From Lepas anatifera (Eukaryota; Arthropoda; Thecostraca; Lepadidae), in the NCBI GenBank assembly GCA_034440635.1, contig JAOTON010002216.1, forward strand, positions 186,001 to 250,000: 64,000 nt of DNA, given 5' to 3'. This document shows, piece after piece, positions 7,544 through 60,360 of this stretch; positions within the stretch are counted from its first letter, which is position 1; the number at the start of each line of letters is the position of its first letter. The notes beneath the pieces were generated by a model. It saw nothing but the letters and a program-made list of their open reading frames with translations. It had not been told where the DNA came from and did not search any database. The position numbers and the translations under genes are program-made.

Positions 7544-7927
7544 TTAACCTTCGCCCGGGTGGGGGTCTTTTAGACCCCCCTCGGGTTTTTCCAAAGCGAC
7601 CAAAAAACGGCGGCGCGCAGCGCCGCCAAACTTGGTCTAGCTGTTCCTTCATCATATTTACATCTTTCCTGAAAATTTCAGCTCAAGGTCATATCAGGTC
7701 AGGTCACCAGGTCAGGTGAAGTGACCTCACCTAAAAAATGCTTAGAACCGCATAACTAAAAGAAGGGTTAATCGATCAAGTTCAAACTCATACCACATAT
7801 TGGGCTCACCAGGAGCTACAACATATGTTGCGGGATTTTGATATTGGTGACCTAAGGTCACCAAGGGGCCTACCAGGCCCCCCTCCAGTGCGCGTTAGTG
7901 CCAGACCCCCTCCAGTGCGGGTGTTAA
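7544..7927 (+). mobile_element. Short TTAA element, A/D hybrid
   Basis: TTAA at 7544-7547 and 7924-7927 bound 384 bases. The left part matches type A: a pyrimidine-rich CTCGGGTTTTT block, then an inverted GGCGGCGCGCAGCGCCGCC segment and the AACTTGGT block, followed by AGGTCAGGTCACCAGGTCAGG. The right end matches type D (CCCCTCCAGTGCGGGTGTTAA-like). Mixed ends suggest recombination between families or an internal deletion. No ORF. Confidence 0.65.
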
Positions 7928-8220
7928 GTAGTGTCCAAAAAAGCATGAAACCACTGTTTCTTCATGTCACTTCTTAATTCGATAGCAGGTAATGATGAGC
8001 TCTAACAGATTCTCACTCACAAACAAAGCCCTATAATATCAGATTGGTTCATACTCTAGAGGGCTTTAGAAAATAATTGAAGATAATAAGCTAACGCAAA
8101 TTTTGGAAGCAAATTTCAAGACTTTCAACAAAGTCTCTTTTAACGAAATTGATGTGGTAATTTTGTATCCAAGTCACCTAAAAAAACCCAGCCCCCAAAG
8201 GCTTAAGCTGTGCAGCTGTC

Positions 8221-8268
8221 GCCCCGGTAGCTCAGTTGGCAGAGTGTTGGGCTTCGGCCCGCTGCTCC
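8221..8268 (+). repeat. tRNA-like SINE head fragment
   Basis: CCCCGGTAGCTCAGTTGG contains an A-box-like tRNA promoter and continues AGAGTGTTGGGCT. The same head occurs at 17321, at 62585 and inverted near 19721. Only about 48 bases remain here, and the B box is missing. Confidence 0.55.
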
Positions 8269-8306
8269 ATATACTCCCTCCTCATACACTCAATGCACTA
8301 ACACTA

Positions 8307-9287
8307 TTAACACGCGCCCAGCTTGGGGGGGCAAAATTCGCCCCATCCCTCCTGGTTTTCCCCAAATAGCACAAAAACGAAAAGACGCAGAACAACAAAA
8401 CCCACAGTACTTGGTTCCTGATCCATTTTACACATCTGACTAAATTTTTGAGTTAAGGTCATGTCAGGTCTGGGAGCTATTCAAGGTCAAGTGACACGAC
8501 CTCAAAACCTAAAATCACGAGGTTTGAAGCGGCGCCCTGGGAACATCAGCAACCCGATCCGTTTGAAACTTTTACAATATCATACGATCGTTAGGGTCTA
8601 TATGTCTGCTATTTCGGAATTTTGATGTGGAGTCAATCTTTTGGTCACCCGATTATAAGTCTATAGTGAAAAATATAATCGGCTCGTTTTCAGTAAATAC
8701 TGGATAGATAAAACTGAAAATCATCAAACCGTCTATTCTTACCATGATCTTGATAAAAAGTTGAGTTTTTGAGCATATGACCTCTCAAAGGTCATGTCAG
8801 GTCACGGGAGCATAGAGCGAATTGTTTGCCAATAACTTCTCACTGAAATGAGATAAAGCTCCCATTTTGCTTGTATTGTGCTTATATTGTCACGGGAAGT
8901 CAATTGATATGCAACATGACCACACCAGGCACTCTATGTCTCTGACCTAACTCGAGGTCAGGTCATTTTCACTATTTGACCTAGCAAGGTCATATTATAC
9001 ATCATTCGATTCGCCGCGATAAGATGAATCCAATGATGCATAAATATTTTCTCTAGCTTTCTTGAGGGCAGATCTAGAGAGAGAAACGTACACTGCTCTG
9101 TTGTAAGGCTATGGAACCTTCTTTGACCTATGCTGACCTCAATATTGACCTGACATAAAAATTATACGTATAAAATATCTTTGCCTTGTCAAGAGCTTTT
9201 GAACGCCGCCCGTAATATTCCTTTAGCTTTCGTGGAGAATGAGATAAGGAGGGGGCGAAAAACGGCCCCCAGCGGGGCGCATGTTAA
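8307..9287 (-). mobile_element. TTAA element, type B, reverse copy
   Basis: It starts TTAACACGCGCCC at 8307 and ends GGGGCGCATGTTAA at 9287. The CCTCCTGGTTTTCCCC block lies at the left and the GAGGGGGCGAAAAA block at the right, which is the reverse of the copy at 10462. The interior repeats TGACCT/AGGTCA many times, and ATCATTCGATTCG sits at 9001-9013. The terminal TTAA at 9284-9287 is also the left boundary of the next element. No ORF; non-autonomous. Confidence 0.8.
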
Positions 9288-10223
9288 CACGCGCACTGGA
9301 GGGGGCCTCGGAGGCCCCCTCCTGTTTTCCGAGGTGGCCGGAGAACCGCTCGTAGCCGAAACACGATACTTCGCCACATTGATTATAATTTAATGGCGCG
9401 TCGATTGATGAAGATTTTTTTTAAATCGGTCGCAAATTTTTTGACTCATAGGCTTTTAAAGTCAGACCTGCATTTTGAGATCGCCGTAATCGCGCGGTCA
9501 GACCAGTTAGCTTGCATTGGAGACCGAGTGGTGAAGTCATAACACTATACAACCGGGATTATATGTCAAGGTCACCTCACATGAAGGTCAAGGTCAAGGT
9601 CAAAGGTCACAGGTCAAGGTCATATCTGCACTTTCAAGGTCGCTAACCACAGTGCTTCCGGTCAAATGACGTTACACGGTCTAACGTACATTATGCTACG
9701 ACGTCATCGATAAGGTACCCCAATACCAAGATCAAGGTCAAAAGGCAAGGTCAAAGGTCATTTGCAAAGGTCAATCCTCATTTCCCGCCAAACAGTGGCA
9801 TATAGTATGTAATGAGATAGTGTTATTCAAAGTGTACATTATAAGTAGTATACTATATTGTGACCTTACAGGTCAATGACCTTGAATGACCTTGACCCCA
9901 AAATGGAAGGAAAGGCTCTTTGAAACCTTCTCTATATGACCCTGGTCCACCTTTAACTGATTCCCGCCATTTTCCCGCATAATCACGGCATTTACCAGTC
10001 GGTCCCCAGCATGGCCAAGTTTTGACCTTTATGACCTCGTTTGACCTTGAAGATTTTGACGTAGGTCAATAAAAAATTGCTCATGATGTAGATAACCATA
10101 ACCTCCACCCACCTCTCAAATTTCGTTTTTCTATGCCTCTTAGTTTCCGAGATCTTAGGGGAGGGCCTACCAGGCCCCCTCCAGTGGGCGTTAGTGCCAG
10201 GCCCCCTCTAGTGCGGGTGTTAA
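9284..10223 (+). mobile_element. TTAA element, type D, complete
   Basis: It is bounded by TTAA at 9284-9287 and 10220-10223. The left end CACGCGCACTGGAGGGGGCC is mirrored by the right GGCCCCCTCTAGTGCGGGTG. A second inverted GC block lies just inside each end. The interior is the most AGGTCA-dense part of the window. It lacks an ORF. It abuts the type B element with a single shared TTAA, as expected if one inserted at the boundary of the other. Confidence 0.85.
9569..9622 (+). promoter_or_regulatory. Seven AGGTCA half-sites in 54 bases
   Basis: AGGTCA starts at 9569, 9585, 9591, 9597, 9604, 9611 and 9617. Spacings include contiguous repeats (DR0) and one-base gaps (DR1). Several read TCAAGGTCA, the extended monomer site known for ERR/FTZ-F1-type receptors, and DR1 is a known RXR/USP/HNF4 arrangement. 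The sites are seen in the sequence; any binding in vivo is inference. They belong to the transposon, not to a recognised promoter. Confidence 0.6.
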
Positions 10224-10461: not shown

Positions 10462-11428
10462 TTAACACGCGCCCGCTTGGGTCCCTAGAATTACGCGCCC
10501 CGATGGGGGACGTATTTCGCCCCCCCCTCCCACCCTCCGTATCTTATTTCCCAGAAAAAAAACTAAATAAAAATTATGGACGGCGTTCAATAACTCTTAA
10601 CGAAAAAAAGATAAACCATTCGAAGTATTTTTATGTCAGGTCAATACTATTGAGGTCAGCATTGGTCAAAGAAGGTTCCACAGGCCTACAACAGGGCAGT
10701 GTACGTACCTACGTTTCCCTCTATGTACTCAGCGGAGCTAGAGCAAATATCCCTGCATCATTGGATTCCTCTCATCGCGGCAAATAGAATGATGCATAAT
10801 ATGACCTTGTTATGTAAAATTGTAAAAATGACCTGACATCGAGTTAGGTCAGGGTCACAGGGTGACCAGGTATGGTCATACTGCACATCAATCGACTCCC
10901 CGTGACAATTTAAGCCCAATGCAAGCAAAATAGGAGCTTTATCTCAATTCAGTAAGAAGTTATTGGCAAAACAATCACTGTATGCTCCTGTGACCTGATA
11001 TGACCTTTGAGAGGTCAGATAGTCAAAAACCCAACTTTATTGTCAAAATCGTGGTAAGAATACGCGGATTGAGGATTTCCATCTTTATATATCCAATATT
11101 TACTGAAAACGAGCCCTTTCTACTTTTCGCCATAGACTTATAATGGGGTGACCCAAATATGACCCCAACTTAGGTAAAGAATATCAAAGTTCTGAGACAA
11201 CATATCTGTAGACCCTAATGACTTAATTATATTGTGAAAATTTCAAACTGATTGATTGGCTCATGTTTCTTAGGCGTCGCTTTAAACTCGTGATTTTAGG
11301 TTTTGAGGTCGGGTCGCTTGACCTTGAATAACTGCCTGACTTGGCATGACCCGACTTTAAACATTTGATCAGGTGCGTAAAATTGATCAGAGGGCGAATT
11401 TCGCCTCCCCCAGCGGGGCACAGGTTAA
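10462..11428 (+). mobile_element. TTAA element, type B, forward copy
   Basis: TTAA at 10462-10465 and 11425-11428 bound 967 bases. The left end reads CACGCGCCCGCTTGGGTCCC, followed by a second CGCCCCGATGGGGGACG unit. The right end is CCCCCAGCGGGGCACAGG. It shares its order with the copies at 23414 and 57136 (TCTTATTTCCCAG-like block, then TATTGAGGTCAGCA, then GTTCCA). An ATTCTAT-type variant of the ATCATTCG hairpin lies near 10770-10800. No ORF. Confidence 0.8.
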
Positions 11429-12669: not shown

Positions 12670-12870
12670 AAGTGCGAAATCCGGGATTTCGCGAACTCCT
12701 AGGATTTCGCGAAATCACTGACCAGCCAGGGAGTTCGCGAAATCCTAGGAGTTCGCGAAATCACTGGCCGACCAGGGATTTCGCGAACTCCTAGGGATTT
12801 CGCGAACTCACTGAAACTTCAGTGATTTCGCGAACTACCTGAATGCTTTTCAGGATTTCGCGAAATCCCT
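12670..12870. repeat. Left TTCGCGAA array (8 copies)
   Basis: Eight copies of TTCGCGAA lie between 12688 and 12864, each within GGRNTTCGCGAAMTCC-like units that are themselves nearly palindromic. Spacers such as CACTGACCAGCCAGG vary. Clustering of an 8-base palindrome at this density is far from chance. Likely role: transposase or other protein binding sites (inference). Confidence 0.8.
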
Positions 12871-16037: not shown

Positions 16038-16240
16038 TCGGAATTCGCGAACTCCTGAGTGTTTATCCGGTTTCGCGAACTCCTGACTTCTAGTCCGGAT
16101 TTCCAACTCCCTGTTTAGTCCAGGATTTCGCGAACTCCCTGTCACCCAGGATTTCCGAACTCCTGATTTCGCGAACTCCTGATGGTCAGTGATTTCGCGA
16201 AATCCCTAGGGTTCGCGAACTCCCGATTTCCCTCCTGTAA
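16038..16240. repeat. Right TTCGCGAA array (6 intact copies plus decayed ones)
   Basis: Intact TTCGCGAA occurs six times between 16044 and 16219. Two further units have lost the core (GGATTTCCAACTCC, GGATTTCCGAACTCC). Unit context GGATTTCGCGAACTCCTG is the same as in the left array. It lies directly inside the right inverted end of the candidate 3.6-kb element. Confidence 0.8.
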
Positions 16241-16383
16241 CATGTACATACATTAGGGTGCGCGTTATAACCCTTTTTCGACATCGAAACTTTTTTCATG
16301 AGGTTTTAGACAGTAGACACAAATATAAAGACAGCCCTACAAAAAAATTCGTCATTTTCTCGAGCTTAAGCAACAGATTTTGA

Positions 16384-17320
16384 CTTTTTAACTCTCCCCA
16401 GTGGGGTGGGAGGGTGCTGAATAACCCCCTACATATTTTTCGTCGTCACGGAGAAACGGCGGCACCAAGCGCCACCGTACTTGGCACAGCTTATTATTAA
16501 TCAATTCTGCAACTTCCTCTAAAAGTTTTAAGTTCGGGTCATTTCGGGTCAGGTCACCAGGCCAGGTCAAGTGACCTCACTTGAAAACATTTTCGGGATT
16601 GCATTACTCAGAGAAGGGTTAATTTATCAATGTGAAACCTATATCATATAATGGCCTCACCGAGGGCTACAAACTGTGTTTCGGCTATTTTGTATATTGT
16701 TGAACTAAGGTCAGGATCGAGTCATGACCTATTCATTGGAAATGCAGGGGGAAAGCGTAAGTTTGCCGAAAAATGTTGCTTTTTTCGTATATAAAGCTTA
16801 TATGGTCTTCTTATTCCCGGGATCGTAATATCGCAGGCTATTCGCAGGGTTAATTTTGCAATGTTTGACCTGTGACCTCTGAGAGGTCATTTGAGTCTAT
16901 CTAAGCACGTTTTGAGACTTATGTCAATAACTGCGCAGTAAATTGCAATAGAGCTCTCATTTGGATACCACTATGTTTGATTTGTCATTACAAGTCAAAT
17001 GATATGCATATTGACTATGTTTAGTTAGATGATGACCTTGACCTGACCCTAGGTCATGCCGCTTTTCTACTTTGTTCTAGTATGGTCAAATTGTACATCA
17101 TTCGAATCGCCATAAAGAGAGGCATCGAATGACGTTTAAATTTTGGCTTTAAAATAACTCAACCAAACGCTAGAGTAAAAATTCTTCTTAATTGTACTAT
17201 TTTGACCTTCAATGACCTCAATATTACTCTGAGCTAAACCTTTATGGGAAAAGTTTCTTAATCGGTTCAGTGGTCTATCAAACCATTTTTTTCGCCATCC
17301 CGCTCAGGAGCCGAATTGCT
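16384..17320 (+). mobile_element. Type E TTAA-like sequence in left palindrome arm
   Basis: TTAACTCTCCCCAGTGGGG at about 16387 resembles a TTAA element end and is followed by the GGAGAAACGGCGGCACCAAG block and many AGGTCA/TGACCT words. ATCATTCGAATCG is at 17098-17110. The matching right-arm copy is inverted at about 19722-20660. The far end is not clear; it runs into the tRNA-like head at 17321. Related to 37599-38366. Confidence 0.5.
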
Positions 17321-17605: not shown

Positions 17606-18662
17606 TTAACCCGCGCCCCACCGGGGGTCCAGCGCCACCTTCGCCCCACCGGGGTCCATCGATGGCCCCCTCTAACTCCGAAAATATGGGGGTTAGCGCA
17701 AATCTGCAAAGTGAATGAGAAAGCTCGCGTGAATTCAGTAAGAAATTACTTTGCATGTTTAAGCGCTCAGGTCAATGGTTGGACCTCCAGAGGTCAAGTT
17801 AGGTCAAGATAGGCCATTTTCACTCAAATATGCAGTGCTTAAGCAAACTGGGCATAACTCTTATGCCATTAGAGATATTGAGGTCTGGTACATTTGAGGG
17901 ATATTGAGGTTTGGTACATTTGATAGGAAAATGTCAGTCCTTTTTCTGCTATGTGAAACGTAATGACCTCCTGCCAGTGGTTTGACCTCCAGAGGTCACC
18001 TCGTGATCTCATATGACCTGAGGTCACGAAAGGTTAGAAAGTGACCTTGCCGTGTATCAAATGAAAGCCAAGGACCAGACAAACACGATGGTGTTTTATC
18101 AGCGCTCTAGCTTAATTAGGTCAAAAATTATTGTCAAAATACTGTTTTTGACCCCTGGTGACCTTGGATGACCTTGCAAAAGTCAAAGGGCAAATATGAC
18201 CCCTGGGATCCGTGAAAGGGTGTCCCAAAACGCTGTTCTTAACAGTCTGAGTATTCGCAATCATTTTTGTGGCTTTTAGGTCATGAGACAGCTTTTCCCC
18301 ATGCTTTTCCATTGGGAGAGGTCGCCTCGGACCTAACCTCAGGTCACGAAATCGAAAAAAATCCCTGATATATATGTTGTAGACCCTGGAGGGGTCATGA
18401 AGTGTAGCAAGTTTCAAATCGATCGACTAAGAAATGTAGCTCTTATAGAGCTTCAAATTTGAAGTGAGGTGATCCTGGTTGACCTCGCCTGGTGACCTGA
18501 CCTTAGGTGACCCAGGGAAAAAAATTATTAGGGATAATTTGAAAATGATGAGGTGAGAGATAGAATCATCAACCGCGTTGCTGCGTTTCGTCGTTTTTCT
18601 GATATCTCGAAAAAAACCTTACGGGGGCCATCGATGCCCCTCCCCCGTGGGGCGAGGGTTAA
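17606..18662 (+). mobile_element. TTAA element, type C, in left palindrome arm
   Basis: It is bounded by TTAA at 17606-17609 and 18659-18662. Left end CCCGCGCCCCACCGGGGGTCC, right end CCCGTGGGGCGAGGG. The opposite arm keeps the uninterrupted site: GATGAC-TTAA-TTGAGACTCC (reverse of 19335-19350) against GATGAC-TTAA-element-TTAA-GTGAGACTCC here. This proves TTAA target-site duplication. It is rich in TGACCTCCAGAGGTCA-type everted pairs. No ORF. Confidence 0.92.
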
Positions 18663-19721: not shown

Positions 19722-20794
19722 AGCAATTCGGCTCCTGAGCGGGGTAGCGAAAAAAATGGTTTGATAGACCACTGGACCGATTAAGAAAGTTTTCCCATAA
19801 AGTTTTAGCTCAGAGTAGCATTGAGGTCATTTAAGGTCAAAATAGTACAATTAAGAAGATTTTTTACTCCAGCGTTTGTTTGATTTATTTTAAAGTCAAA
19901 ATTTAAACGTCATTCGATGCCTCTCTTTAGGGCGATTCGAATGATGTACAATATGACCATACTAGAACAAAGTACAAAAGTGACATGGCCTAGGGTCAGT
20001 TCAAGGTCATCATCTAACTAAACATAGTCAATATGCATATCACTTGGCTTGTAATGACAAATCAAGCATAGTGGTATCCAAATGAGAGCTCTATCGAAAT
20101 TTACTGCGCAGTTATTTACATAAGTCTCAAAACGTGCTTAGATAGACTCAAATCACCTCTCAGAGGTCACAGGTCAAAAATTGCAAAATTAACCCTGCAA
20201 ATAGCCTGTGATGCCTCGATCCCGGGAATAAGAAGACCCTATAGGCTTTATATACGGAAAAGCAACATTTTTCGGTAAACTTGCGCTTTCCCCTTGCATT
20301 TTCAATGGAGAGGTCATGACTCATACCTGACCTTAGGTCAAAAATAGACAAAATAGCCGAAACACAGTTTGTAGCCCTCGGTGAGACCATTATATGATAT
20401 AGATTTTACATTGATAAATTAACCCTTCTCTGAGTAATGCAATCCCGAAAATGTTTTGAAGTGAGGTCACTGGACCTGGCCTGGTGACCTGACCCGAGAT
20501 GGCCCGAACTTGAAATTTTTAGCATAATTTGCAAACTTGATTAATGATAAGCTGCGCCAAGTACGGTGGCGCTTGGCTCTGCTGTTTCTCCGTGACAACG
20601 AAAAATCTGTAGGGATTTAGTCGGCACCCTTCCGCCCCACTGGTGGAGGGTTAAAAATTGAAAATCCGTTACTTAAACTCGAGAAAATGACAAAGTTTGT
20701 TGCAGGGTTGTCCTTATATTTGTGTCTACTGTCTAAAACCGCATGAAAAAGTTTCGATTTCGAAAAAAGTGTTATAACGCGCACCCGTACATAC

Positions 20795-23413: not shown

Positions 23414-24776
23414 TTAACACGCGCTCTGCTGGCGTCTCTGTCAGGAAGCACCCCGCGGGGAGCGCATTCGCCCCCCTCCGCATCTCATTTCCCAGGAAAG
23501 CTAAATACAAATTACAGACGGTGTTTGAAAGCTCTTGACGAGACGAAGAGAAATAATAATAATTATTCTTATGTCAGGTCAATATTTAGGTCAGCACAGG
23601 TCAAAAAGGTTCCATAGGCTTACGACAGGGCAGTGTACGTGCCCCTCTCGATTTTCACTCAGCGGAGCAAGAGAAAATATTCATGCACCATTGGATTTCT
23701 CTCATTGTGACAAATCGAATGATGTATGAAATGGCCTTGCTGGGTCAATTTATGGAAATGACCTGACATCGAACTAGGTCAGGGTCACAGGGTGACCTGG
23801 TATGGTCATGTTGCATATTAATTTACTCTCCGTGACATATAAGCACAATACCAGCAAAATAGGAGCTTTATCTCGATTCAGTGAGAAGTTATTAGCAAAA
23901 CAATTACTGTATGCTCCTGCGACCTGGCATGACACTTAATAGGTCAGATGGTCAGAAACTCAACCTTATGGTCAAGACCTTGGTAGCAATACACGGTTTG
24001 AGGTTTTCAGCTTTATCTATAAGTTTTTACTGAAAACGAAACCTTTCTATTTTTCACCATAGACCTGCAATGGAGCGACCAAAAAATTGACCCCACCTTA
24101 AGTCAATAAGATGACAATTTCGAGATAGCAGGTCTGTATACCCTAACGACGTCATCATATTGTGAAAGCTTCAAACTGATCTTTTTTTAATTTTTCATGG
24201 GCTTTCTTATATTTGCACCTCTAAATACTAATCAGGCAAAACTCTCAAAAACAGTCGCAACCGCGTACAATGCTCTCGGTCAGCAATCATCACACCAACA
24301 ATAACACACCGATCCTCCTCACCTCCTGCCCTCGCCACTATGCCGGGCGGTGTTGACCGCTCGGGATTACCACATTTCGCCGTCTCTGACTGTCCGGCAC
24401 CAGCCAGCTGAGTTCCTCACGGGATGCTAGTACTCGTACATACATAGATCAATCAAGTGCGCGCTCGGTGGTGGGCGCGAGCCGGCGACTATTGCAGTAC
24501 CAGGTGATCAAACAGACGCTTCAAACTGATCGGTTGGATGGTGTTCCTTAGGCGCCGCTTCAAACTCGTGATTTTGGGTTTTGAGGTCGGGACACTTGAC
24601 CTTAAAGAACTCCTTGACCTGACATGACCTGACCTCATAAATTTGGTCATATGCATAAAATTTATCATGAATAAGGTACTGTAAGTTTCGTTATTCTGCG
24701 TCCCTTTGTTCTTTGCGTTATCTGGGGAAAACCAGGAGAAGGGGGAGAATTTCGCCCCCAGTGGGGCGCATGTTGA
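23414..24776 (+). mobile_element. TTAA element, type B, interrupted by a retro-insertion
   Basis: It starts TTAACACGCGCTCTGCTGG at 23414 and ends CCCCAGTGGGGCGCATGTTGA at 24776, where the terminal TTAA has become TTGA and is shared with the next element. Its internal order matches 10462 and 57136. A 336-bp insertion (24182-24517) splits it, so the element proper is about 1.0 kb. No ORF. Confidence 0.8.
24182..24517 (-). mobile_element. 336-bp retroposed insertion with 14-base duplication
   Basis: GCTTCAAACTGATC occurs directly on both sides (24168-24181 and 24518-24531). Seven T at 24182-24188 form an A tail on the minus strand, the signature of LINE-mediated retroposition. The type B copy at 57136-57985 reads through this point uninterrupted. 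The minus-strand 5' end reads ACCTGGTACTGCAATA, resembling the loop region of U2 snRNA stem-loop IV, but the rest is not U2. The resemblance is from memory; a SINE or processed RNA copy is possible. Confidence 0.75.
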
Positions 24777-25829
24777 CCCTCGCCCCACCGGGGCTATTGA
24801 TGGCCCCCTAATGTTTTTCGGGATAGCAGAAAAACGACGAGACGCAGCACCGCAGTTGAGGGTTCTACATCTTAATCCATCATTTTCCCAACATCCCAGA
24901 AATTTTTTACCCCGGGTCACACAAGGTCAGGTCACCAAGCAGGGTCAACCAAGGTCACCTCACTTCAAATTTTGAGCTCTGTAACAGCTATATTTCTTAG
25001 TCGAACAATTCCTAACTTCCCACACCTCATGACCCCTCCAAGGTCTATAACGTTTATATCCGGATTTTTCGATTTCGTGACCTGAGGTCAGGTCACGATG
25101 TTACCTCTCCGATTGAAAAAGCATGGGGAAAAACTGTTTTATTATCTAAAAATCATAAAAACTGCAAATGCTCAGCTTGCTCAGAAGAGCGTTATTGGAC
25201 GCCCTTTCATGGATCCCAGGGGCCATTATTGCCTTTTGACCTCTCCAAGGTCATCCAGGGTCACCAGTGGTTGAAAAAGTATCTTGACAATAACTTTTGA
25301 CCTAATTAAGCTAGAGCAATGAATCAAACATCATTGTGTATGTCTCGTCACTGGTTTTCATTTGATATACGGCATGGTCACATTCTGACCTTTCTCGACC
25401 TCAGGTCATATTAGGTCACGAGGTGACCTCTGGAGGTCAAACCACTGGCGGGAGGTCATTACTTTTTACATAGTTAAAGAAGGCCGGGCATTTTCCTATC
25501 AAATGTACTTTAGCAGATCCCAATAGCCCTAGTGGCATAAGAGCTATGCCTAATTTTCTTAAGCATTTTAGTAGTATTTTAGCAAACATTTTAGTTTACT
25601 TTATATTTTAGTGAAAAAATCCCATCGTGACCTATTTGACCTTTGGAGGTCAAACCACTGACCAGAGTGCTTAAACATGTATAGTAGGTTCTTAATGAAT
25701 TCACGCGAGCTTTCTAATGCAGTTTGTAGATTTGCGCTAACATCCATATTTTCGGAGTTAGAGGGGGCTATCGATGGCCGCCGGTGTGGGGCGAAGGTGG
25801 TGCCGGACCCCCAGTGGGGCGCGGGTTAA
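24773..25829 (-). mobile_element. TTAA element, type C, reverse copy
   Basis: It starts TTGACCCTCGCCCCACCGG and ends CCCCAGTGGGGCGCGGGTTAA (25826-25829). Internal blocks are the reverse complement of the copy at 17606, including TGACCTCTGGAGGTCA-type pairs. Its left boundary TTGA doubles as the right boundary of the type B element. No ORF. Confidence 0.85.
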
Positions 25830-29499: not shown

Positions 29500-30454
29500 T
29501 TAACACGCGCCCGCTGGGGGTGGGGGAGAAATTCCTCCCTCCTGGTTTTCCCCAGATAACGCGAAAACGAAGAAATTCGGAGTAGCGAAACTTACAGTAC
29601 CCTTATTCCTGATCAATTTTACGCATCTGACCAAATTTTTTTAGGTCAGGTCATATCAGGTCAAGGAGTTATACAAGGTCAAGTGACCCGACCTCAAAAC
29701 CTAAAATCAAGAGTTTGAAACGGTGCCTAACTGCTGTCTCGGAATTTTGATATTCTAGACCTAAGGTGGGGTCAATTTTTTGGTCACCCCATTATAAGCC
29801 TATGATGAAAAATTGAAAGGGCTCGTTTTCAGTAAATACCGGATAGATAAAGCTAAAAATCTTCAAACCGTGTATTCTTACAACGATCTTGATGATCAAG
29901 TTGAGTTTTTGACCATCTGACCTCTCAAAGGTCATTTCAGGTCACAGGAGCATACAGTGATTGTTTTGCTAATAACTTCTCATTGAATTGAGATAAAGCT
30001 CTTATTTTGTTTTCATTGTGCTTATATTGTCACGAGGAGTCGATTGATATGCAACATGACCATAACAGGTCACCCTGTGACCCTGACCTAGCTCGAGGTC
30101 AGGTCATTTTCACCATTTAGCCTAACAAGGTCATAGTATACATCACTCGATTCTTCACGATGAAAGGACTCCAATGATGCATCAATTTTTTCTCTAGCTT
30201 TGCTGACTAAATATCTAGAGGTGGAAACGTACACTGCCCTGTTGTAAGCCTATGGAACCTTCTTTGACCTATGCTGACCTCAATATGACCTAACATGAAA
30301 ATGTGTCGTATAATTTATCGTTGTCTCGTCAATAGCTTTCAATCGCCGTCCGTAATTTTTCTTTAGCTTTTCTGGGAAATGAGATACAGAGGGGGGCGAA
30401 AAACGCCCCCAGCGGGGCACGTCATGCCAGGGACCCCAGCGGGGCGCGTGTGAA
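29500..30454 (-). mobile_element. TTAA element, type B, reverse copy
   Basis: It starts TTAACACGCGCCCGCTGGGG at 29500 and ends CCCCAGCGGGGCGCGTGTGAA, where the terminal TTAA has mutated to TGAA (30451-30454). The right end keeps the doubled CCCCAGCGGGGC unit seen at the left of the 57136 copy. The interior repeats AGGTCA and the ATCACTCGATTC hairpin near 30145. No ORF. Confidence 0.85.
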
Positions 30455-31696
30455 CACACAACGTGTAAAACGGCCAAACACATGTCAAAAACACAACATA
30501 TGTTAACATGCAGGAATAAAAATATATCAGAACATGCCATTTAACATCGAAACATACTCGCAGCCTCAGGATAAGTAGATAGAGCTGGATTTACATCATG
30601 CTGAAATAAACCCAAGATCGTTCCTAGTAGACAGCAGTGAAAGAGTGCGAAATAACATGCCTAACAAACTGATCTGTAAAACAATGTCAAATTTTCACCT
30701 CTCCGTGTGCATTAGTGATCATAAAGCCTGGAGATCCGAACAAACATACTTGCTTTGACATTATTAACCCTGGCAAAAGGCACACGGAACATCCTAGGGT
30801 TCTGTAACGCTCGGGAAGAAACAGCCAATGGAAATTATTCGAGAAGATAAGACGAGTCAATTTTGTGTTTGAACAGCTTTCTAATGAATGACGCATCGTT
30901 ATGCAGCCTCCTTGCCGCCAGTGAATCTAGCCAGAAAAGATATCACCGGAATCAGTAGGTTTTACTCTTTTTGTCTCACCGGACATCGTTAATAAACTCA
31001 TCATATTTCGAAATTTATAATATTTTGTTTAGTTTATCGGACGTAGCACACCTCTCACACAAGACCAACTGGATATGGCACTATGTCAGCATCAGCATTG
31101 CTGTTAACGCTTTTTTTTCGAGCGTAGTAAAGACATTCCGAAATCGTACCGAATTCGTATCTCACTGTACAAAGTGGTTGACAGGTGTAGAATTAGCTGC
31201 AGAACAAAGTTGGGGAAACAGCGTGTTCACGAACTGGGACAGCAGCGACAGCACGCGAGCGAACCGAGCGAATTTGAGACCTCGCGAAGCCGTGGGGAAG
31301 CCGCAGCCGACGAAAGTGAAAATGCCACCGGCAGGTTAGGAGTGCCGCAAGCCAATTCGCTGGATCGAGACAAGCTTAGGCTACGTTAGGTTACGTGTAA
31401 AAACGTTGCTTCCGTCACGGTTTCAAGTTAATTGCAACAATTTACCTCGTCGATCCGACCAAGCTCGGCATTTTCCATCACTGGCTGGTGCCAGCAGAAG
31501 CATGTTAGTACGAACGTAGTGTTAGTATATACTAACCACGTGAGCAGAAGTGTGGATCATAATATTTTCATACTCGAACTTGTAAAATACATGTTTTTAC
31601 TTCCAATTTATATTTGAAATATTGTTGCAAATTGAAAATATCACCTTTACACTTTGAAAACGCCATTTCCTGGTTAATATAAATAAATGTCGTTTA
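30455..31696. other. Unassigned DNA
   Basis: A 122-codon plus-strand frame at 30971-31339 has a hydrophobic patch but no family I recognise, and an overlapping frame is also open. Not called as a gene. A CGAGCGAA-rich stretch lies at about 31245-31290. Confidence 0.35.
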
Positions 31697-32722
31697 TTAA
31701 CCCGCGCCCCACCGGGGGTCCGGCGCCTTTTTCCCCACCGGGGGCCATCGATGGCCCCTCTAACTCCGAAAATATGGGGGTTAGCGCAAACCTGCAAAGT
31801 GCATTAGAAAGCTCGCGTAAATTCAGTTATAAATTACTTCACATGTTTAGGCGCCAAGGACAATGGTTTGACCTCCAGAGGTCAATGAAAGGTCACGATA
31901 GGCTATTTTCACTCATATATGCAATGCTTAAGAAAACTGGGCATAACTCTTATGCCATTAGAACTTTTAAGATCTGGTGAAGTACATTCCATAGGAAATT
32001 GCTAGACCTTTTTCCGCTATGTGAAAAGTAAAGACCTTCCGCCGGTGGTTTGACCTCCAGAGGCCACCTCATGACCTAATATGACCTCAGGTCACGAAAG
32101 GTCAGAAAGTGACCTGACCGTATATCAAATGAAAGCCAGTGACAAGACAAACACGATGGTCTTTGTTTCAGCGCTTTAGCTTAACTAGGTCAAAAGGTAT
32201 TGTCAAATACTGTTTTGACCCCTTGTGACCTTGGATGACCTTGGAAAAGTCAAAGGGCAAATATGACCCCCTGCGATCCGTGAAAGGGTGTCCAAAACGC
32301 TGTTCTGAGCAGTCTGAGTATTTGAAATCATTTTTGTGGCTTTTAGATCATGAGACAGCTTTTACCCATGCTTTTCCAATGGGAGAGGTCGCCTTGTGAC
32401 CTGACCTCAGGTCACGAAATCGAAAAATCCCGGATATACACGTTGTAGACCCTGGAAGGGTCATAAAGTGTAGCAAGTTTCAAATCGGTCGACTAAGAAA
32501 TGTAGCTCTTATAGAGCTTTAAAGTTGAAGTGAAGTGACCTTGGTTAACCTCGCCTGGTGACCTGACCTTGGGTGACCCGGGGTAAACATTTTCAGGGAT
32601 GGTGGGAAAATGATGAGGTGAGAGATAGAGCCCTCAACCACGGTGCTGCGTTTCGTCGTTTTTCTGTTATCCCGAAAAAAACCTTAGGGGGCATCGATGG
32701 CCCCCGGTGGGGTGAGGGTTAA
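31697..32722 (+). mobile_element. TTAA element, type C, copy B
   Basis: TTAA at 31697-31700 and 32719-32722. Left end CCCGCGCCCCACCGGGGGTCC, right end GGTGGGGTGAGGG. It matches the copies at 17606 and 34793 along its length, including TGACCTCCAGAGGTCA, the ACACGATGG segment and TTTTTCTGTTATCCCGAAAA near the right end. No ORF. Confidence 0.88.
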
Positions 32723-34792: not shown

Positions 34793-35827
34793 TTAACCCG
34801 CGCCCCACCGGGGGTCCAGCGCCACCTTCGCTCCACCGGGGGCCATCGATGGCCCCCTCTAACTCCGAAAATATGGGCGTTAGCGCAAATCTGCAAAGTG
34901 CAATAGAAAGCTCGCGTGAATTCAGTAAGAAATTACTTCGTATGTTTTAGTGCTCAGGTCAACGGTTTGACCTCCAGAGGTCAAATTAGGTTGAGATCGA
35001 TTTTTTCACTCAAATATGCAATGCTTAAGCAACCTGGGCATAACTCTCATGCCATTAGAGCTATTGAAGTCTGGTAAAGTACATTTGATAGGAAATTGTC
35101 AGTCCTTTTTCCGCTATGCGAAACGTAAAGACCTCCCGCCAGTGGTTTGACCTCCAGAGGTCACCTCGTGATCTAGGATGACCTGAGGTCACAAAAGGTC
35201 AGAAAGTGACATTGCCGTATATCAAATGGAAGTCAGTGACAAGACAAACACGATGGTGTTTGTTTCAGCGCTCTAGCTTAATTGGGTCAAAAGTTATTGC
35301 CAAAATACTGTTTTTGACCCCTGGTGACCTTGGATGACCTTGGAGAGGTCAAAGGGCAAATATGGCCCATGAAATCCGTGAAAGTGTGTCCCAGAACGCT
35401 TTTCTGATCAAGCTGAGCATTTTTAATCGCTTTTGTGACTTTTAGATCATATGACAGTTTTTCCCCATGCTTTTTCAATGGGAGAGGCCACCTCGTGACC
35501 TGACCTCAGGGCACAAAATCGAAAAATCCCGGATATACATCTTGTAGACCCTGGAGGGGCCATAAAGTTTAGGAAGTTTCAAATTGATTGAATTCGAAAT
35601 GTAGCTCTTACAGAGCTCTAAAGTTGAAGTGAGGTGACCTTGGTTGACCTCGTCTGGTGACCTGACCTTGGGTGACCCAGGGTAAAAAAAATTTCAGGGA
35701 TGGTGGGAAAATGATGCAGTGAGAGGTAGAGCCCTCAACCGCGGTGCTCCTCCGCCTCTTCTTTTTTCTGCTATCCCGGAAAAACCTTAGGAGGGGCATC
35801 GATGGCCCCCGGTGGGGCGAGGGTTAA
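34793..35827 (+). mobile_element. TTAA element, type C, copy C
   Basis: TTAA at 34793-34796 and 35824-35827. Left end CCCGCGCCCCACCGGGGGTCC, right end CCCCGGTGGGGCGAGGG. Co-linear with the other type C copies. No ORF. Confidence 0.88.
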
Positions 35828-36639: not shown

Positions 36640-37340
36640 CCGATGATCTATTAAGGTCAACTCACATAAAAGGGGTCAAAGTCAAGGTCAAATGTTACAG
36701 ATCAAGGTCACACCATTATTTTCAAGATCATTGGCAGAAGTGCTTCCGGTGTGATTATTTCACGCAGTAAGAAGTATGTTATGATGTGACGTTATGATGA
36801 AAGTTACTCCTGTTCAGGCGATTTTCATAGGTCACGGCTAAAGATCATGCGCTAAGGTCAGGCATTTATTTCCAGCTCAACGGCTGCTCAGTTACGATGT
36901 AACGTTCGAATTTAAGGGGGGCGGGCTTTTCAACCCATATCTTTCCAGTCGACGTCTTTAGGTAGTGCTAGAATGTATGACTGTAAAATGTACCGTGCCC
37001 CACTGACCCTCGCCCCCCCAATTCCGCCGCCAGCGCGGCTGCTGATATAGGGTTAGGTATAGCTCTACTATGAGAGATATATTACATATTGTGACTCATT
37101 GCCTTAGTCCGTTTGGAGCGTATTCTTGACTTATCTCTGCCTAATCACGGTATTTCCAAAATATCCCATCGAGGCTCATATTTTACTTGTATGGCCACAT
37201 TTCAATCTGAAGATATATAACTTGGTCAATATAAAGTGGCCGTAATGTAGACCAATAGAGCCTCCATTAAATACCAAGCGCATGTTTTCCTAACATTCTT
37301 GGTTATTTAGATCCTAGGAAGAGGGGATGGGGGCGGCGCT
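36640..37340 (+). mobile_element. Degraded TTAA element, type D relic
   Basis: The left half follows the complete type D element: clustered AAGGTCA, TGCTTCCGGTGTGA and TATGATGTGACG blocks. The right half keeps CACGGTATTTCC and GATCCTAGG-like blocks. A segment at 36915-37045, also present at 52344, interrupts it. Ends are eroded. Confidence 0.45.
36915..37045 (+). repeat. Dispersed repeat, copy 1 (partner at 52344)
   Basis: GGGCTTTTCAACCCAT, TTTCCAGTCGACG and TAGTGCTA blocks, then TTCCGCCGCCAGCGC, recur in order at 52344-52490. Nature unknown. Confidence 0.6.
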
Positions 37341-37598: not shown

Positions 37599-39524
37599 TT
37601 AACAACCGCCCAGGTGGGCCTTCGAGCCACTCTCGCCCTGGTGGCGAGGGGGGGTTCCTACATGGGATTGCGAAAAAACACAAAGGCTATTGGATAGCTC
37701 ATACAAATTCATGAAAAAACTACATTGGGCACACTTTTTGGCTCAGGTCAATATTGAGGTCATAACAGGTCAAAGAAGCTGGCATGTTAGAGAAGAGTGT
37801 CCAGGTTCTAGAGTCTAACAGAGTGGAGTTAGAATAATTTTAGGCACTATTCACTTCCACTCCTTACGGCGAATCGAATGCTGTATAATATGACTATACT
37901 AGGTCAAAACATAAAATGGCCTGAACTAAGGTCAGGTCAGTGTCACTATCCAACCTAGTATAATCAATATGCATATCAATAGACTTGCAATAGCAATCCA
38001 AACGTAATGGCATCAAAATAAAAACTTTATCATCATTTCCTGCAACGTTATTGACCCACGTCTGAAACCTGCATCAATAACCTTAGATGACCTCTCAAAG
38101 ATCACATGTCAAAAATTCCAGCATGAATCTTGAATGGGACCCAGAATACTACGATTTTGAAAATATGAAGGTATTTTCAGATGCATCTACACAAATTTAG
38201 CCCAATTCCTGATTTCCCATGCATTTGCAATGGAGAAGTCATGATCCGTGCCTGAGCCTAGGTCGTTGATATGGAAAATCCCGGGATGTATTTTTAGTAC
38301 TCGGTACGCCCATTATGTGGTATAAGTTTAATCCGATAGATTCACGCATTTCTAACTTATGCCACCTTAACCCTGCCCCACCGGGGGGCCATCGATGCCC
38401 CTAAGGTTTTTTCCGGGATAGCAGAAAACGACGAGGCGCAGCACCGCGGTTGAAGGCTCTACCTCTCAGGCATTATTTTGCCATCATCCCTGAAATTTTT
38501 CCCCGGGTCACCCAAGGTCACGTCACCAGACGAGGTCAGCCAAGGTCACCTACTTCACCTTTAGGCTCTGTAAGAGCTACATTTCAAAGTCGATCAATTT
38601 GAAACTTCCTACACTTTATAACCCCTCCAGGGTCTACAAGGTGTATATCCGGGATTTTCGATTTCGTGCCTTGAGGTCAGGTCACGAGGCGACCTCTCCC
38701 ATTGGAAAAGCATAGGGAAAAGTTGTTTCATGATATAAAAGCCACAAAAATGATTGCAAATACTCAGACTGCTCAGAACAAGTTTTTGGACTCCTTTCAC
38801 GGATCCCAGGGGTCATATTTGCCTTTGACTTTTCCAAGGTCATCCAAGGTCACCAGAGGTCAAAACAGTATTTTGGCAATAACTTTTGACCTAATTAGCT
38901 AGAGCGGTGAAACAAACACCATCGTGTTTGTCGTGTCACTGGCTTTCATTTGATATACGGCAAGGTCACTTTTTGACCTTTCATGACCTCAGGTCTATTA
39001 GGTCACAAGGTGACCTCTGGAGGTCAAACCACTGGCGGGAGGTCTTTACGTTCCACATAGCGGAAAAATTACTGGCAATTTGCTATCAAATGTACTTAAC
39101 AGGCCTCAATAGCTCCAATGACATAAGAGTTATGCCCAGTTTGTTAATCATTGCATATTTGAGTGAAAATAGCCGATCTTGACCTAATTTGACCTCTGGA
39201 GGTCAAACCATTGACCTGAGCACTAAAACATGCAAGTAATTTCTTACTGAATTCACGCGAGCTTTCTTTGCACTTTGCAGATTTGCGCTAACGCCCATAT
39301 TTTCGGAGTTAGAGGGGGGCCATCGATGGCCCCCGGTGGGGCGAAGGTGGGCCGGACCCCGGTGGGGGGGGTTAAAAAATTGGAGGTGAGGCCACTTGGC
39401 CTGCACTGGTGACCAAACTGGCGCTTGGCACCGCCGCTTTTTTTCGTGCCGCCGCAAAAAGCCGAGGGGTTTCAAGCTACTCCTTTCCCGGGGCTAGGGC
39501 TAAATGCACGTCAACCATCGTTAA
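37599..39524 (-). mobile_element. Type E TTAA element split by a type C insertion
   Basis: The left TTAACAACCGCCCAGGTGGGCC begins at 37599. The interior parallels the right palindrome arm (about 19780-20400): AGGTCA words, ATATGCATATCAATAGACTT, then TGACCTCTCAAAG. At 38367 a type C element interrupts it, after which the host resumes with GGCGCTTGGCACCGCCG and TTTTTTTCGTG, as near 20570 in the palindrome. The right limit (TTAA 39521-39524) is uncertain because its end is not a clean TIR. Confidence 0.55.
38367..39375 (-). mobile_element. TTAA element, type C, nested reverse copy
   Basis: TTAA at 38367-38370 and 39372-39375. Left end CCCTGCCCCACCGGGGGGCC, right end GGACCCCGGTGGGGGGGG. It reads as the reverse complement of the copies at 31697 and 34793. 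It sits at a TTAA inside the type E host. No ORF. Confidence 0.85.
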
Positions 39525-39647
39525 CATGCGCATTGGCAGAGGCCTAAGCAGCATTTTCCCTGAAGAAAGGGGGCGGGTACCCCTCCCATAGATCTCGAGA
39601 ATCACACTAGTTAGCGAAAAACGGTAAACGGCGTTGGGTAGCGTGAC
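39521..39647 (-). mobile_element. Type A end fragment
   Basis: TTAACATGCGCATTGGCAG is a type A terminus. Then GGGGGCGGGTACCCCTCCC and the AAACGGCGTTGGGTAGC block follow, the reverse complement of the type A right end. The rest of the element is missing, replaced by a type D end at 39648. Confidence 0.7.
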
Positions 39648-40010
39648 TTAACACGCGCGGTGGAGAGAGGTCTGGCGTCAACGCGCAGTGGAGGGGTCCT
39701 AAAGTCCCCCCTAAGATCTTGGAAACCAAGAGGGTTAGAAAAACGCCCGTTGGTGGCTATGGGGGTGAGGTGATCTACATGATGATACTTTTTATTTACC
39801 TAGTTCAACATCTTCCTGGTCAAACGAAGTCGTAAAGGTCAAGTCTGGACCGTGCTGGAGACCTATCCGAAAATGCCGTGATTATGCGGAAATAAGCTGG
39901 GAATACACCAAAACCGGAATAAGGTCATGGGGGAAGGTTCCACACAGTTATCGAAAATTTTGAGGTCAAGGCCATTCAAGGTAAATGACCTATGACATAA
40001 AAATACGATT
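39648..40010 (-). mobile_element. Type D fragment
   Basis: TTAACACGCGCGGTGGAGAG, then a second CAACGCGCAGTGGAGGGGTC, match the right end of type D in reverse, as do TAAGATCTTGG and AAATGCCGTGATTATGCGG. It breaks off after the TGACCTATGAC words near 40000. Truncated. Confidence 0.65.
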
Positions 40011-40645
40011 AATCTTATTTTATTTTATTCATTTTTATGACCTTTTGATACATTTAAAAAAACTATACTGTTTTCCACCTGCATTGTTGAAACTCGTGCG
40101 CAGATGTCACATTTATTATTGTTTTGTGATATGGGCGACATATGGCCCTACATGTCGGTGCACCCTAAAACGCCAAATATGATGATGAGAGGTTATCTCC
40201 GATCATCTCCGATCTCCGTTCAGAGATTACAGAGATAATTTCCAGTACGTCGAAATCACCAATGGATACAGCGGAAGCACAACAACTCGGAGGACTGGAG
40301 GTACTGAACCCTACAATGTACACCTAAATCCGGTGAGCTTCAAACAGGAAATGTATCCTGCCTCATGTTCTCGGTCTTCGAGAACGACATGAACCTTTAT
40401 ATCGAGAATTCCACCGCGGTTCAATTCAGTGACAACACCCAACCGATCATATCTGGCCCAAAACAGAACCATGATACTAGGTTATCATCGCCCGCCCGAG
40501 CGCGGCATGGCTGTTCTTTTAGATTGGTTTTCCATACTGATACTGCCGGATCACGCGAGTCTCTGTAGTTTCAAAACGGCCTCCAGAGAGGACTGAAATT
40601 GCTGCTGAACGAAATTGTTGCTGAGAGAGAAATGAAAAATATGTT
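40011..40645. other. Unassigned DNA
   Basis: A short duplication GATCATCTCCGATCTCCG lies near 40200. No gene recognised. Confidence 0.4.
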
Positions 40646-57135: not shown

Positions 57136-57985
57136 TTAACACGCGCCCCGCTGGGGTCCCTGGCATGACGCGCCCCGCTGGGGACGTTTATCGCCCCCTC
57201 CGTATCTCGTTCCCCACGAAAGCTAAAGGAATATTACGGGCGGCGTTCGAAAGCTCTTGACAAGACAAAGTTATTCTAAATGAATTTTTTTATGTCAGGT
57301 CAATATTGAGGTCAGCCTAGGTCAAAGAAGGTTCCATAGCCTTACAACAGAGCAGCGTACGTTTCCGGGATGTTGGGTTGCATGTCAATCAACTCCCCGT
57401 GACAATATTGGCACAATAAAAGCAAATGGAAGCTTTATCTCAATTTCATGAGAAGTTATTGGCAAATAAATCACTGCTCCGTGACCTGATTTGACTTTTG
57501 AGAGGTCAGATGCTCAAAACTCAACTTTATGGTCAATATCGTGGTAAGAATAGACGGTTTGGGGATTTTCAGCTTAATCTATGCAGTATTTACTGAAAAC
57601 GAGCCTATTTTATTTTTCACCATATACTTATAATGAGGTGACCAGAAAATTGACCCCACCTTAAGTCAACAATATAAAAATTCCGAGATAACAGACTTGT
57701 AGACCCTAATGACTTTATCATATTGTGGAAGTTTCAAACTGATCGGTTCGCTGATGTTCCCTGGGCGCCGCTTCAAACTCGTGATTCTAGGTTTTGAGTT
57801 CGGGTCACTTGACTTTAAATAGCTCTTTAACCTGACATTATCTTAACTAAAAAAATTGGTCAGATATGTAAATTGATGAGGGATAAGATACTGTAAGTTT
57901 CGTTGTTTTGCGTTTATTTGTTTTTAAGCTATCTGGGAAAAACCAGGAGGGGGCCAATTTCGCCCTCTAGCGGGGCGCGTGTTAA
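57136..57985 (+). mobile_element. TTAA element, type B, 850 bp
   Basis: TTAA at 57136-57139 and 57982-57985. The left end carries two GCGCCCCGCTGGGG units; the right end is CTAGCGGGGCGCGTG. Shorter than other B copies because the segment holding the ATCATTCG hairpin is missing after the GTACGTTTCC block near 57360. It reads uninterrupted where the copy at 23414 has its retro-insertion. No ORF. Confidence 0.88.
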
Positions 57986-59093
57986 GTGAAAACCACACTT
58001 AGCGTCAACGATGCTTCAACTCCCACAGAAACATTAAAGAAGCCCTTCCAAAAACAGCAGAGTACACAAAGAGTGTAACGTTTTCCTCAGGTGGGAAAAT
58101 ATCAAAATTATTTCATGAAAGCTGAATTTGGTGCTCAAGTTGAAGGCAAATTGGCAGCCTGGAGTTCAGGAGGATCTTAGCTATGTCAGCTTTCTGGGGG
58201 GAATTTTGCCGAAAATCGATGACAGTATCAACACTGAGTCAAATCGAACTTCAGTCGTTGTTTCAATTACACAACAGACTATTTCTAAGCCCTTTTTACA
58301 GACTGAACATGTTTTCCCGGCAAGCACATCCCTACGTAGTCCAGAAGAGAACACCGTGAGCATCTTTCAGGTAAAAGTATCAACCAGAGTCAGTAATGAA
58401 CTGCTCACATTGCCCGAAACAATCACAAAAATCATAAAGCAATTATGTGATATTGTTTGGTAGTGCATGTTCGCCAAGGAGTTGCATACATTCAACAACT
58501 TAGAGCTGGTTCTCCTCAAATAATCCGACTCGAAATAGAAACGGAGTTGCAGTGGGTTATCTGAAGAAGCAAAGTTAATGCTACAGCCCAAGACAGCTGC
58601 AGCAAGTTATGGTAGCACATAAACCAGCAGTTTCAGAAGCTCGCCGCTAGGTGGAAATAGTAGAAGAGACATATGAATGATGTATTTAAGGTTGATGATA
58701 TTTTAGTAAACTTTGACACTAGAAACACTGTTGCCGCAAACCCAAACCCATCTAGGGGCTCTTCATTAATGACGTCACTTTTAAGGGAGAATTTCCAGAC
58801 CCACTCCCCTCCCAAAGCCATTGTGTCACTTTTGGGCAGATATCTCTCGTCCATGTCATGGCGTCATTTTTGGGTGAACCTTCACGTCAAGGCATCATTT
58901 TTGGCGGATTCAAATATCATGACGCTACTTTTGGTGAACCCCTCCAGCTAACGGTATTCCTCTCCGCTTGCCCTGACATTGACGGTGTCAAGCGGGGTCG
59001 AAGATCAATCGTTTTGTGTTTAACGTTCGGCCTCAGTCCAATTTCTAGGTAGCTCCACCTTCTCCGTCAGATAAAATGACGGCTTACCCTCGC
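57986..59093. other. Unassigned DNA with a 111-codon plus-strand frame
   Basis: The frame at 58128-58463 has ordinary composition (Ser, Thr and Val rich) and starts at ATG or GTG. No domain or membrane segment is recognised. It is the most protein-like unassigned frame in the window, but still weak. Confidence 0.25.
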
Positions 59094-60360
59094 CCTACCG
59101 GGGGTAGTTTACACCCCTGCCCTACCGGGGGTCCCTATAGGGTTATAGGGTCCCTATGGACCCCCGTAACCGTTTGAAAAGTAAGATATATAGAAAGATA
59201 CCGTAAATTGCAGCGTGTTGCCCGTGACCTAAATTGTTGATGGTACACACGCTTTTGACCCTAGGTGAATTGGTGACCTTGAGAGGTCACATATATGTCC
59301 TGGTCAAGCTAAAATCAAATGAAATACAATCACGCCGTGACTTTGTAACACGTTTTGGTAGCCAAACATTGCAGTCATGTTTTTAGACATTTGCAATCTT
59401 CCGCACTTATCATAAAATTGAAAACATTGCAAAAGTTCAACAAGTGTTCCGAACCCAATATAGCCTACTGAGGTTTGACCTCTTCCGCAGCGTGGTAAAC
59501 TGCACTGTCTGTAAAAAAACAACTTGAAATAATATCAGTAAAGCGCACTTGACTGCTTCAGCATATACTGTTGCATGCCAAACTTGGTAATTGTAAGTGA
59601 CTCACCTTGAATGACCTTGGAAGATCAAACATCAATAAACCCAGCGATCTTCATTCAGAAAGTGGCGAAAAATCTTGCTAAAAACATTGGAAAATATGCA
59701 TGTTAGATCATACCGGTAAAGGTCATTGGAGGTCAGTGACCATGTTTGACCTGTGGCGTGGCTAATGACTTCAGATGTCCTTTTCTACCAAACAGTGTAG
59801 GGCATGGCAGCTCTGTAGCTTACTATTTATATTTCCAAAATTTTACGGAAGTAGATTACACTGGGTCATGACCTTGGTTGTCCACGTGACGATCAGACAT
59901 AGGAAGCCACAAAGGTAAGTGCTAGATACCAATCAAAGTATAGGGGCCCCAACATCGGCCATTTTCTCATTGAACGACCAGGCATATTGACATGGCCTCG
60001 CCTGGGTCAGATGAGGTCACCTGGCGTCTCTTTCACATTGCATGTGCTCAGGAGGTCAAGGGTCATCAAGGCAACTGCATTGAAGCTTGGAGCCTGTATA
60101 AGCAACCAGCTCAAGCCATATTGAGGTTCCTAGATCAAGAACAGTGAGAAAGACGGCGAATATATCGTGCAGGCCTTTGAGAATGACCTCATATCTCCAT
60201 GGCTTGAGATGACTTAGACTTGAACATTTTTTCCAAACGTGTAACATTAAATTTCGTTCCAACATATTGGACGGCATTGCTCTAAGCCGAGCCATTCATC
60301 TGCCATCGTGAAAATACGACGATGAGGGTCCAGATTGGCCCCCGGTAGAGCGAGGGTTAA
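59094..60360 (+). mobile_element. TTAA element, type F, 1267 bp
   Basis: The left end TTACCCTCGCCCTACCGGGG (one A lost from TTAA) is mirrored by CCCCCGGTAGAGCGAGGG then TTAA at 60357-60360. A second CCCTACCGGGGGTCCC unit lies just inside the left end. The interior has AGGTCA, TGACCTTG and GAGGTCACCTGG words like the other types. It is the longest member; no ORF. Confidence 0.75.

Follow-up and report, generated by a model that had tools for sequence, protein, structure and literature searches.

Arrays of AGGTCA within TTAA-bounded elements of Lepas anatifera: possible receptor-binding sites of non-autonomous piggyBac-like transposons

A 64,000-nucleotide stretch of the genome of Lepas anatifera (contig JAOTON010002216.1, positions 186,001 to 250,000; hereafter the window) contains a set of transposable elements bounded by TTAA and crowded with the hexamer AGGTCA or its complement, TGACCT. 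AGGTCA is the half-site of nuclear receptors. The association between hexamer and element within the window is confirmed by the counts given below. As to its meaning, the reading favored here, with a probability of about 0.5, is that the elements are non-autonomous members of the piggyBac superfamily and that the arrays may be a selected protein-binding site, acting in cis and bound by a host nuclear receptor. A preliminary description of the same DNA is partly supported by the analysis. It saw in the elements a candidate for an undescribed system, and in this it must be amended: the end architecture is piggyBac-like, and the elements, piggyBac-type and non-autonomous with AGGTCA arrays, appear to be new as a variant, not as a system of transposition.

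Confinement of the hexamer to TTAA elements

Counted over the full 64,000 bp, AGGTCA/TGACCT occurs 293 times, against 30 occurrences expected from dinucleotide content, and is the most over-represented of the hexamers with more than 40 copies. Self-comparison of the window, together with a scan of TTAA pairs, delimited 16 complete TTAA-type elements and 9 fragments (Table 1), the complete set consisting of families A (five copies), B (five), C (three), and D (one), a hybrid (H), and a divergent element (X). The elements and fragments amount to 20,053 bp and contain 275 of the 293 hexamers, while the remaining 43,947 bp contain 18, as compared to a mean of 19.0 in 30 shuffles, i.e., the background level. 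In each of the 16 complete elements, the count (5 to 19 hexamers) is higher than in any of 200 dinucleotide shuffles of that element (means of 0.2 to 0.7). Seven of the nine fragments carry 5 to 13 hexamers, none being present in the other two, which are the shortest at 129 and 127 bp. The claims made earlier, of at least fifteen TTAA-bounded elements or large fragments and of interiors crowded with the hexamer, are borne out. Two other TTAA-bounded elements in the window (2886-3671 and 52588-53045), whose tips are AGGGAGTG/AGGGAATG, served as controls. Neither contains a single AGGTCA, so insertion at TTAA does not as such bring the hexamer with it.

Among the six transition variants of the hexamer, GGGTCA is the most common within elements (48 copies, as against 8 to 26 for the other five), and in the same comparison AGTTCA showed no enrichment within elements. 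The preference is for RGGTCA, with some looseness.

Insertion at TTAA and the relationship of the copies

TTAA is found intact at both ends in 11 of the 16 complete elements. One of the two is degenerate in A2, B3, B5, and X, and both are in A5 (the left one at 38367). Of TTAA pairs whose tips agree at 11 or more of 16 bases, the window has 34, as compared to 3 to 9 in five random sequences, though some of the 34 come from a genomic inverted duplication and not from elements. Empty sites were found for two of the 13 elements whose joined flanks were tested. When A5 is excised in silico over one TTAA, the rejoined sequence of the interrupted element G matches C1, C2, and C3 through the junction, where each of the three has a single TTAA. 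(It likewise matches the F copies, H1, and C4, in which that site lacks TTAA.) A1 lies in one arm of the inverted duplication, and the other arm runs on uninterrupted, with a single TTAA (82% identity over 222 bp). For the remaining 11 joined flanks, no spanning match was found within the window. The two empty sites show insertion at TTAA.

The inverted duplication itself extends from 16256 to 20786, with arms (16256-17537 and 19500-20786) that are about 91% alike and a less similar center (18659-19344). The inverted repeat at 18659-19344 was considered as a separate foldback element and rejected, as it continues the longer duplication that received A1. A1 entered the left arm later.

Copies within family A and within family B are 79-89% alike. 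Those of family C are 88-95% alike (C1, C2, and C3), with C4, an old copy, about 65% like them. Between families (A, B, C, F, G, and H; 14 comparisons), identity outside the hexamers is about 48-71%. The families are therefore homologous, and part of their common hexamer content must be put down to simple descent. The preliminary description had six end types keeping the hexamer while the rest of their sequence differed widely. The keeping of the hexamer is upheld, but the families are not otherwise unrelated. H1 combines ends of different families: its right 62 bp is 93.5% like D1, whereas its left end resembles C and F, and either cross-mobilization or an internal deletion between neighbors may account for this.

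Ends of the piggyBac type

At each end a short tip leads into a GC-rich palindrome, the core of which is specific to the family (ATCGAT in A, GGTACC in C, and others in B and D). In 14 of the 15 elements measured (X was not among the 15; the palindrome used was the second-ranked for B5 and a tied one for H1), the palindrome is centered 22-28 bp from one tip, and at the opposite end 47-53 bp from the tip. The offset between the two ends is 22.5-31 bp in these 14 elements, with a median near 27, the exception being B1. The longer end contains a second copy of the inner portion of the tip. A very similar layout has been described for piggyBac of Trichoplusia ni (T. ni), whose ends are 35 and 63 bp: the left-end palindrome occupies bp 17-33 (centered near bp 25), a palindrome lies about 28 bp deeper at the other end, and the longer end has an insertion and a duplicated inner motif (PMC7351741). 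Like the elements described here, it inserts at TTAA (PMC7351741). The present elements differ in lacking a transposase gene and in the sequences of their tips and palindromes, and they carry AGGTCA arrays, of which the passages on T. ni piggyBac describe none (PMC7351741). The earlier statement that the ends do not look like classical piggyBac termini is not supported by the architecture as measured (PMC7351741). End anatomy and insertion at TTAA together place the elements, very probably, in the piggyBac superfamily as non-autonomous members.

The elements have inverted tips, and no open reading frame (ORF) of at least 130 amino acids recognized by Pfam was found in them among those scanned, which agrees with their having been called ORF-less. 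Miniature inverted-repeat transposable elements (MITEs) are defined as small, non-coding elements with terminal inverted repeats; most of the elements described here are about 0.9-1.4 kb, which exceeds the usual size.

Position, polarity, and spacing of the hexamers

Hexamer positions were counted from the tips over the 32 ends of the 16 complete elements. The first 130 bp contain only 3 hexamers in total. Between 131 and 200 bp, 80 hexamers point inward and 10 the other way, 28 of the 32 ends having at least one that points inward, and between 251 and 450 bp polarity is gone (49 versus 50). Within arrays, pairs in direct orientation with a spacer of 4 (AGGTCA-4-AGGTCA, termed DR4, a direct spacing of 10 bp) occur 15 times in nine representative elements, as compared to 2.9 after the hexamers are shifted at random by at most 12 bp (jittered). 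None of 2000 jittered sets reached 15, and DR4 pairs are present in all nine representatives (the nine are related to one another and so not independent). The elements thus hold RGGTCA half-sites in dimer spacing: AGGTCA in excess, GGGTCA as the commonest variant, and DR4 in 9 of 9. A binder of the nuclear receptor type fits this combination. In yeast, DR4 reporters respond to EcR-USP pairs of insects, and with one of these pairs no other element was as efficient as DR4 (PMC5494300).

The placement of the hexamers and their inward orientation could also be accounted for if they were subterminal sites of the transposase or of another protein encoded by the elements, with the likeness to receptor sites coincidental or due to a zinc finger in that enzyme. 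A number of transposons carry repeated sites for their transposase in subterminal DNA, and Tol2 and Ac are examples of transposons in which the transposase binds subterminally. The left end of piggyBat carries repeated motifs over about 120 bp (PMC11707139). But tips and palindromes vary from family to family, and the hexamer does not. In addition, the array begins beyond the end segments described in the passages on piggyBac and piggyBat (PMC7351741, PMC11707139), most of the deeper hexamers have no polarity, and RGGTCA and DR4 resemble the sites of receptors. A transposase site therefore seems somewhat unlikely. Tips and palindromes would be expected to change along with the transposase, and they have diverged, but the hexamer has stayed the same. 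This agrees better with a host protein of slow evolution than with an enzyme that co-evolves with its ends.

Retention of the hexamer

Since the families are homologous, the arrays could have no function at all: an ancestor might by chance have been rich in AGGTCA and its descendants might have inherited the repeats. The tandem run of the motif in D1, possibly a product of slippage, could be seen in this light. The matter was approached by masking hexamers before alignment and counting them afterwards, in 14 comparisons between families. A hexamer was found in register with one of the same orientation in 64 of 162 cases, about twice the approximately 29 expected. (The expectation is a rough neutral one, the cube of the identity, summed over the rows of the comparison.) Eleven of the 14 comparisons exceed the maximum of their own shifted controls, the best being B1 with C1, where 10 of 13 hexamers are in register; the three without excess count in favor of an absence of function. 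Alignments made without masking gave higher retention (between B and C, 64 of 99 hexamers as opposed to 340 of 6418 other 6-mers). These figures were set aside as overstated, because a hexamer seen in one copy is more likely to be ancestral than is a random 6-mer and because arrays attract the aligner. A comparison limited to 6-mers conserved in all copies of a family, with hexamers kept in 5/5, 2/5, 3/3, and 1/3 of the cases and others in 3-30%, is only suggestive, as there are just 3 to 5 hexamers per comparison.

Within families, columns of the alignment occupied by hexamers depart from consensus less often than columns elsewhere: 3.7% versus 8.3% in family A and 6.1% versus 10.9% in family B. 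Both values lie below those of all circular shifts. Together with the polarity of the subterminal zone and the preferred spacing, the retention and the column constraint make a lack of function quite improbable, and selection on the hexamer is probable. The proposal that its retention suggests a function is supported in that there are signs of selection beyond composition, although part of the common hexamer content is due to descent.

On what does selection act? The hexamers might be kept for a role after insertion, as a receptor-responsive enhancer useful to the host or to the element, or perhaps as a brake on transposition. HNF4alpha sites occur in Alu (PMC3252374), and piggyBat has inhibitory subterminal DNA (PMC11707139). 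Variants confined to a single copy are somewhat fewer in hexamers (P of 0.06 and 0.08 in families A and B; 0.04 and 0.03 as fractions of shift controls). Counts are small, but depletion is clearer for variants common to two or more copies (Fisher P of 0.003 and 0.03), and no gene was identified adjoining the elements. That the hexamers are kept for a role after insertion is most improbable. The pattern is the one to be expected if selection acts on the mobile source copies and protects inserted ones less or not at all, again with the small counts in mind. If the hexamers act in cis in the spreading of the elements, this would explain their retention, their distance from the tips, and their polarity.

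Coding content and searches for related sequences

The window contains eight stop-to-stop ORFs of at least 130 amino acids, of which six were scanned against Pfam. Only the ORF at 50013-50777 gave a match at E of 0.01, to reverse transcriptase (27.7 bits, under the curated cut-off of 29.6), along with a weak match to a domain of unknown function (DUF). It has 884 relatives at E of 0.001. Among the best 120 of these, the closest is 91% identical over 63%, and those with species names come from crustaceans (Oratosquilla, Procambarus, Macrobrachium, and Amphibalanus), which by itself makes a crustacean host probable.

Exact patterns drawn from the elements found no match in viral contigs (two patterns) or in genome contigs (one pattern), and an alignment of piggyBac proteins found no relative in viral contigs. 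A looser pattern of three hexamers hit 15 viral loci, but with 0.4-2.5 hexamers per kb these were taken as chance. No earlier report of AGGTCA arrays in TTAA elements was among the matches listed from the full-text literature, the Repbase and Dfam catalogues lying outside the comparison.

Inventory of the elements

The elements and fragments are given in Table 1. The left tip of the last element (X), placed at 59020 in the preliminary description, is actually near 59084.

Table 1. TTAA-type elements and fragments, with positions in the window
Element	Position	Strand	Features
A1	17606..18662	+	complete family A; TTAA both ends; 17 hexamers; empty site 19420-19205
A2	24773..25829	-	complete family A; TTGA/TTAA; 18 hexamers; adjoins B5
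A3	31697..32722	+	complete family A; TTAA both ends; 18 hexamers
A4	34793..35827	+	complete family A; TTAA both ends; 17 hexamers
A5	38367..39375	-	complete family A; sits in element G; 19 hexamers; empty site in C1, C2, C3
B1	8307..9287	+	complete family B; TTAA both ends; 13 hexamers; without the longer piggyBac-like end
B2	10462..11428	-	complete family B; TTAA both ends; 9 hexamers
B3	29500..30455	+	complete family B; degenerate right TTAA; 15 hexamers
B4	57136..57985	-	complete family B; internal gap; TTAA both ends; 5 hexamers
B5	23414..24776	-	family B; TTAA/TTGA; 11 hexamers; unrelated sequence at about 24203-24519
C1	26937..27802	+	complete family C; TTAA both ends; 16 hexamers
C2	32820..33677	+	complete family C; TTAA both ends; 16 hexamers
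C3	47994..48515	+	family C, shorter internally; TTAA both ends; 7 hexamers
D1	9284..10223	+	complete family D; 19 hexamers; left TTAA common to B1
H1	7544..7927	+	hybrid, C/F-like left end and D-type right end; TTAA both ends; 7 hexamers
X	59084..60360	+	divergent; left TTA(C), right TTAA; 12 hexamers
C4	14006..14858	+	old copy, about 65% like C1; degenerate ends; 8 hexamers
F	16388..17312	+	left part of element, in left arm of inverted duplication; 13 hexamers
F'	19728..20654	-	copy of F in right arm of inverted duplication; 10 hexamers
G	37599..38370	-	interrupted by A5; 7 hexamers; additional piece at 39372-39500
Short family C end piece	39521..39647	-	0 hexamers
D2	39648..40045	-	fragment resembling right part of D1; 5 hexamers
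D4	36640..36920	+	fragment resembling D1 interior; 5 hexamers
D3	4257..4760	-	fragment resembling D1 interior; 8 hexamers

Two pairs of elements stand back to back on one target site, B1/D1 at 9284-9287 and B5/A2 at 24773-24776. Stretches resembling tRNA (GGTAGCTCAGTTGG...) at 8222-8264, 17318-17540, 19500-19730, and 62579-62800 look like short interspersed nuclear elements derived from tRNA, and ARAGORN reported no tRNA gene. Related tandem arrays based on GATTTCGCGAACTCC lie at 12683-12869 and 16039-16227 and are about 75% alike when one is inverted.

Discussion

How might the arrays work? The elements would be moved in trans by TTAA-targeted transposases encoded elsewhere in the genome. By analogy with piggyBac, each family's own transposase would bind the family-specific palindrome through its C-terminal, zinc-binding domain. 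The inward RGGTCA arrays, about 131-200 bp from the ends and preferring DR4, would take receptor dimers, and the receptor might aid mobilization by opening chromatin in the germ line or embryo, by tethering the transposase, or by assisting the pairing of the two ends. There is a precedent for tethering: CSB-PGBD3, a protein derived from piggyBac, is tethered to AP-1, a transcription factor of the host (PMC3459987). Judged from the sequence features set out above, the odds that a host nuclear receptor is the binder are about even. A stronger version holds that transposition depends on the receptor as a cofactor, bound as DR4 dimers to the arrays of both ends and gated by hormone or by a germ-line or embryonic receptor, so that families with diverged transposase sites would remain tied to the same factor. 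This version is fairly unlikely.

Several observations weigh against the overall reading. Some concern the transposon itself. The tips of families B, C, and D start with CACG, and that of A with CCCG; the tip of piggyBat begins with CAC. The sequence CC[C/T]T, which is found generally, according to the source, but not always at piggyBac tips (PMC2872659), is seen here in X (CCCT) and at the left end of H1 (CCTT) and nowhere else. No remnant of a transposase was found in the window by tblastn with 120 piggyBac proteins (best E of 0.15, as compared to 2e-99 for the reverse transcriptase control), although the 120 were those most similar to the protein of T. ni, so that a more distant lineage of piggyBac might escape the search. 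Others concern the arrays. AGGTCG, AGGTCT, AGGTGA, AAGTCA, and TGGTCA are also raised within elements, to 2.2-2.9 times their level outside. The left end of D1 has no inward hexamer at 131-200 bp, and at the left end of X the hexamers are mainly outward. Spacings of 5, 13, and 28 bp are in excess as well as that of DR4, everted and converging pairs are also common, and helical phasing of the hexamers is unsupported (P of 0.38). Finally, the masked comparisons A3/C1 (2 of 15), G1/C1 (1 of 5), and H1/A4 (0 of 7) show no excess, and the families are homologous, hence the counts from different comparisons are not independent.

Parts of the picture have counterparts elsewhere. The CMITEs of Acropora are, like the present elements, non-coding, bounded by TTAA, and tied to piggyBac, and their families have inner sequence in common despite differing tips, the inner region being suspected of aiding transposition (PMC2872659). 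They differ in size (about 100 bp, versus 0.4-1.4 kb here), in their CC[C/T]T tips, and in that the common region is a 75-bp internal sequence and not a repeated hexamer (PMC2872659). A further parallel is provided by MER85 and CSB-PGBD3, with piggyBac elements that are likewise non-autonomous and have an internal palindrome close to one of their ends, but are 140 bp long, and with a protein of piggyBac origin that is tethered to a transcription factor of the host (PMC3459987). That tethering takes place at motifs of AP-1, TEAD1, and CTCF and was not tied to transposition (PMC3459987). Alu, too, is a high-copy repeat with nuclear receptor sites. Unlike the elements described here, which have at most 19 hexamers each, it is a retrotransposon, and its sites have no arrangement relative to transposon ends (PMC3252374).

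The elements of piggyBac are widely used as tools for gene transfer and are regarded as requiring only a transposase and short ends. Polarized arrays for a host factor, kept through deep divergence of the elements that carry them, would suggest that a host factor joins in transposition or determines its timing. Such transposons would also distribute ready-made response elements for a receptor over the genome of an animal, and their spread could in this way lead directly to hormone-responsive control of genes.

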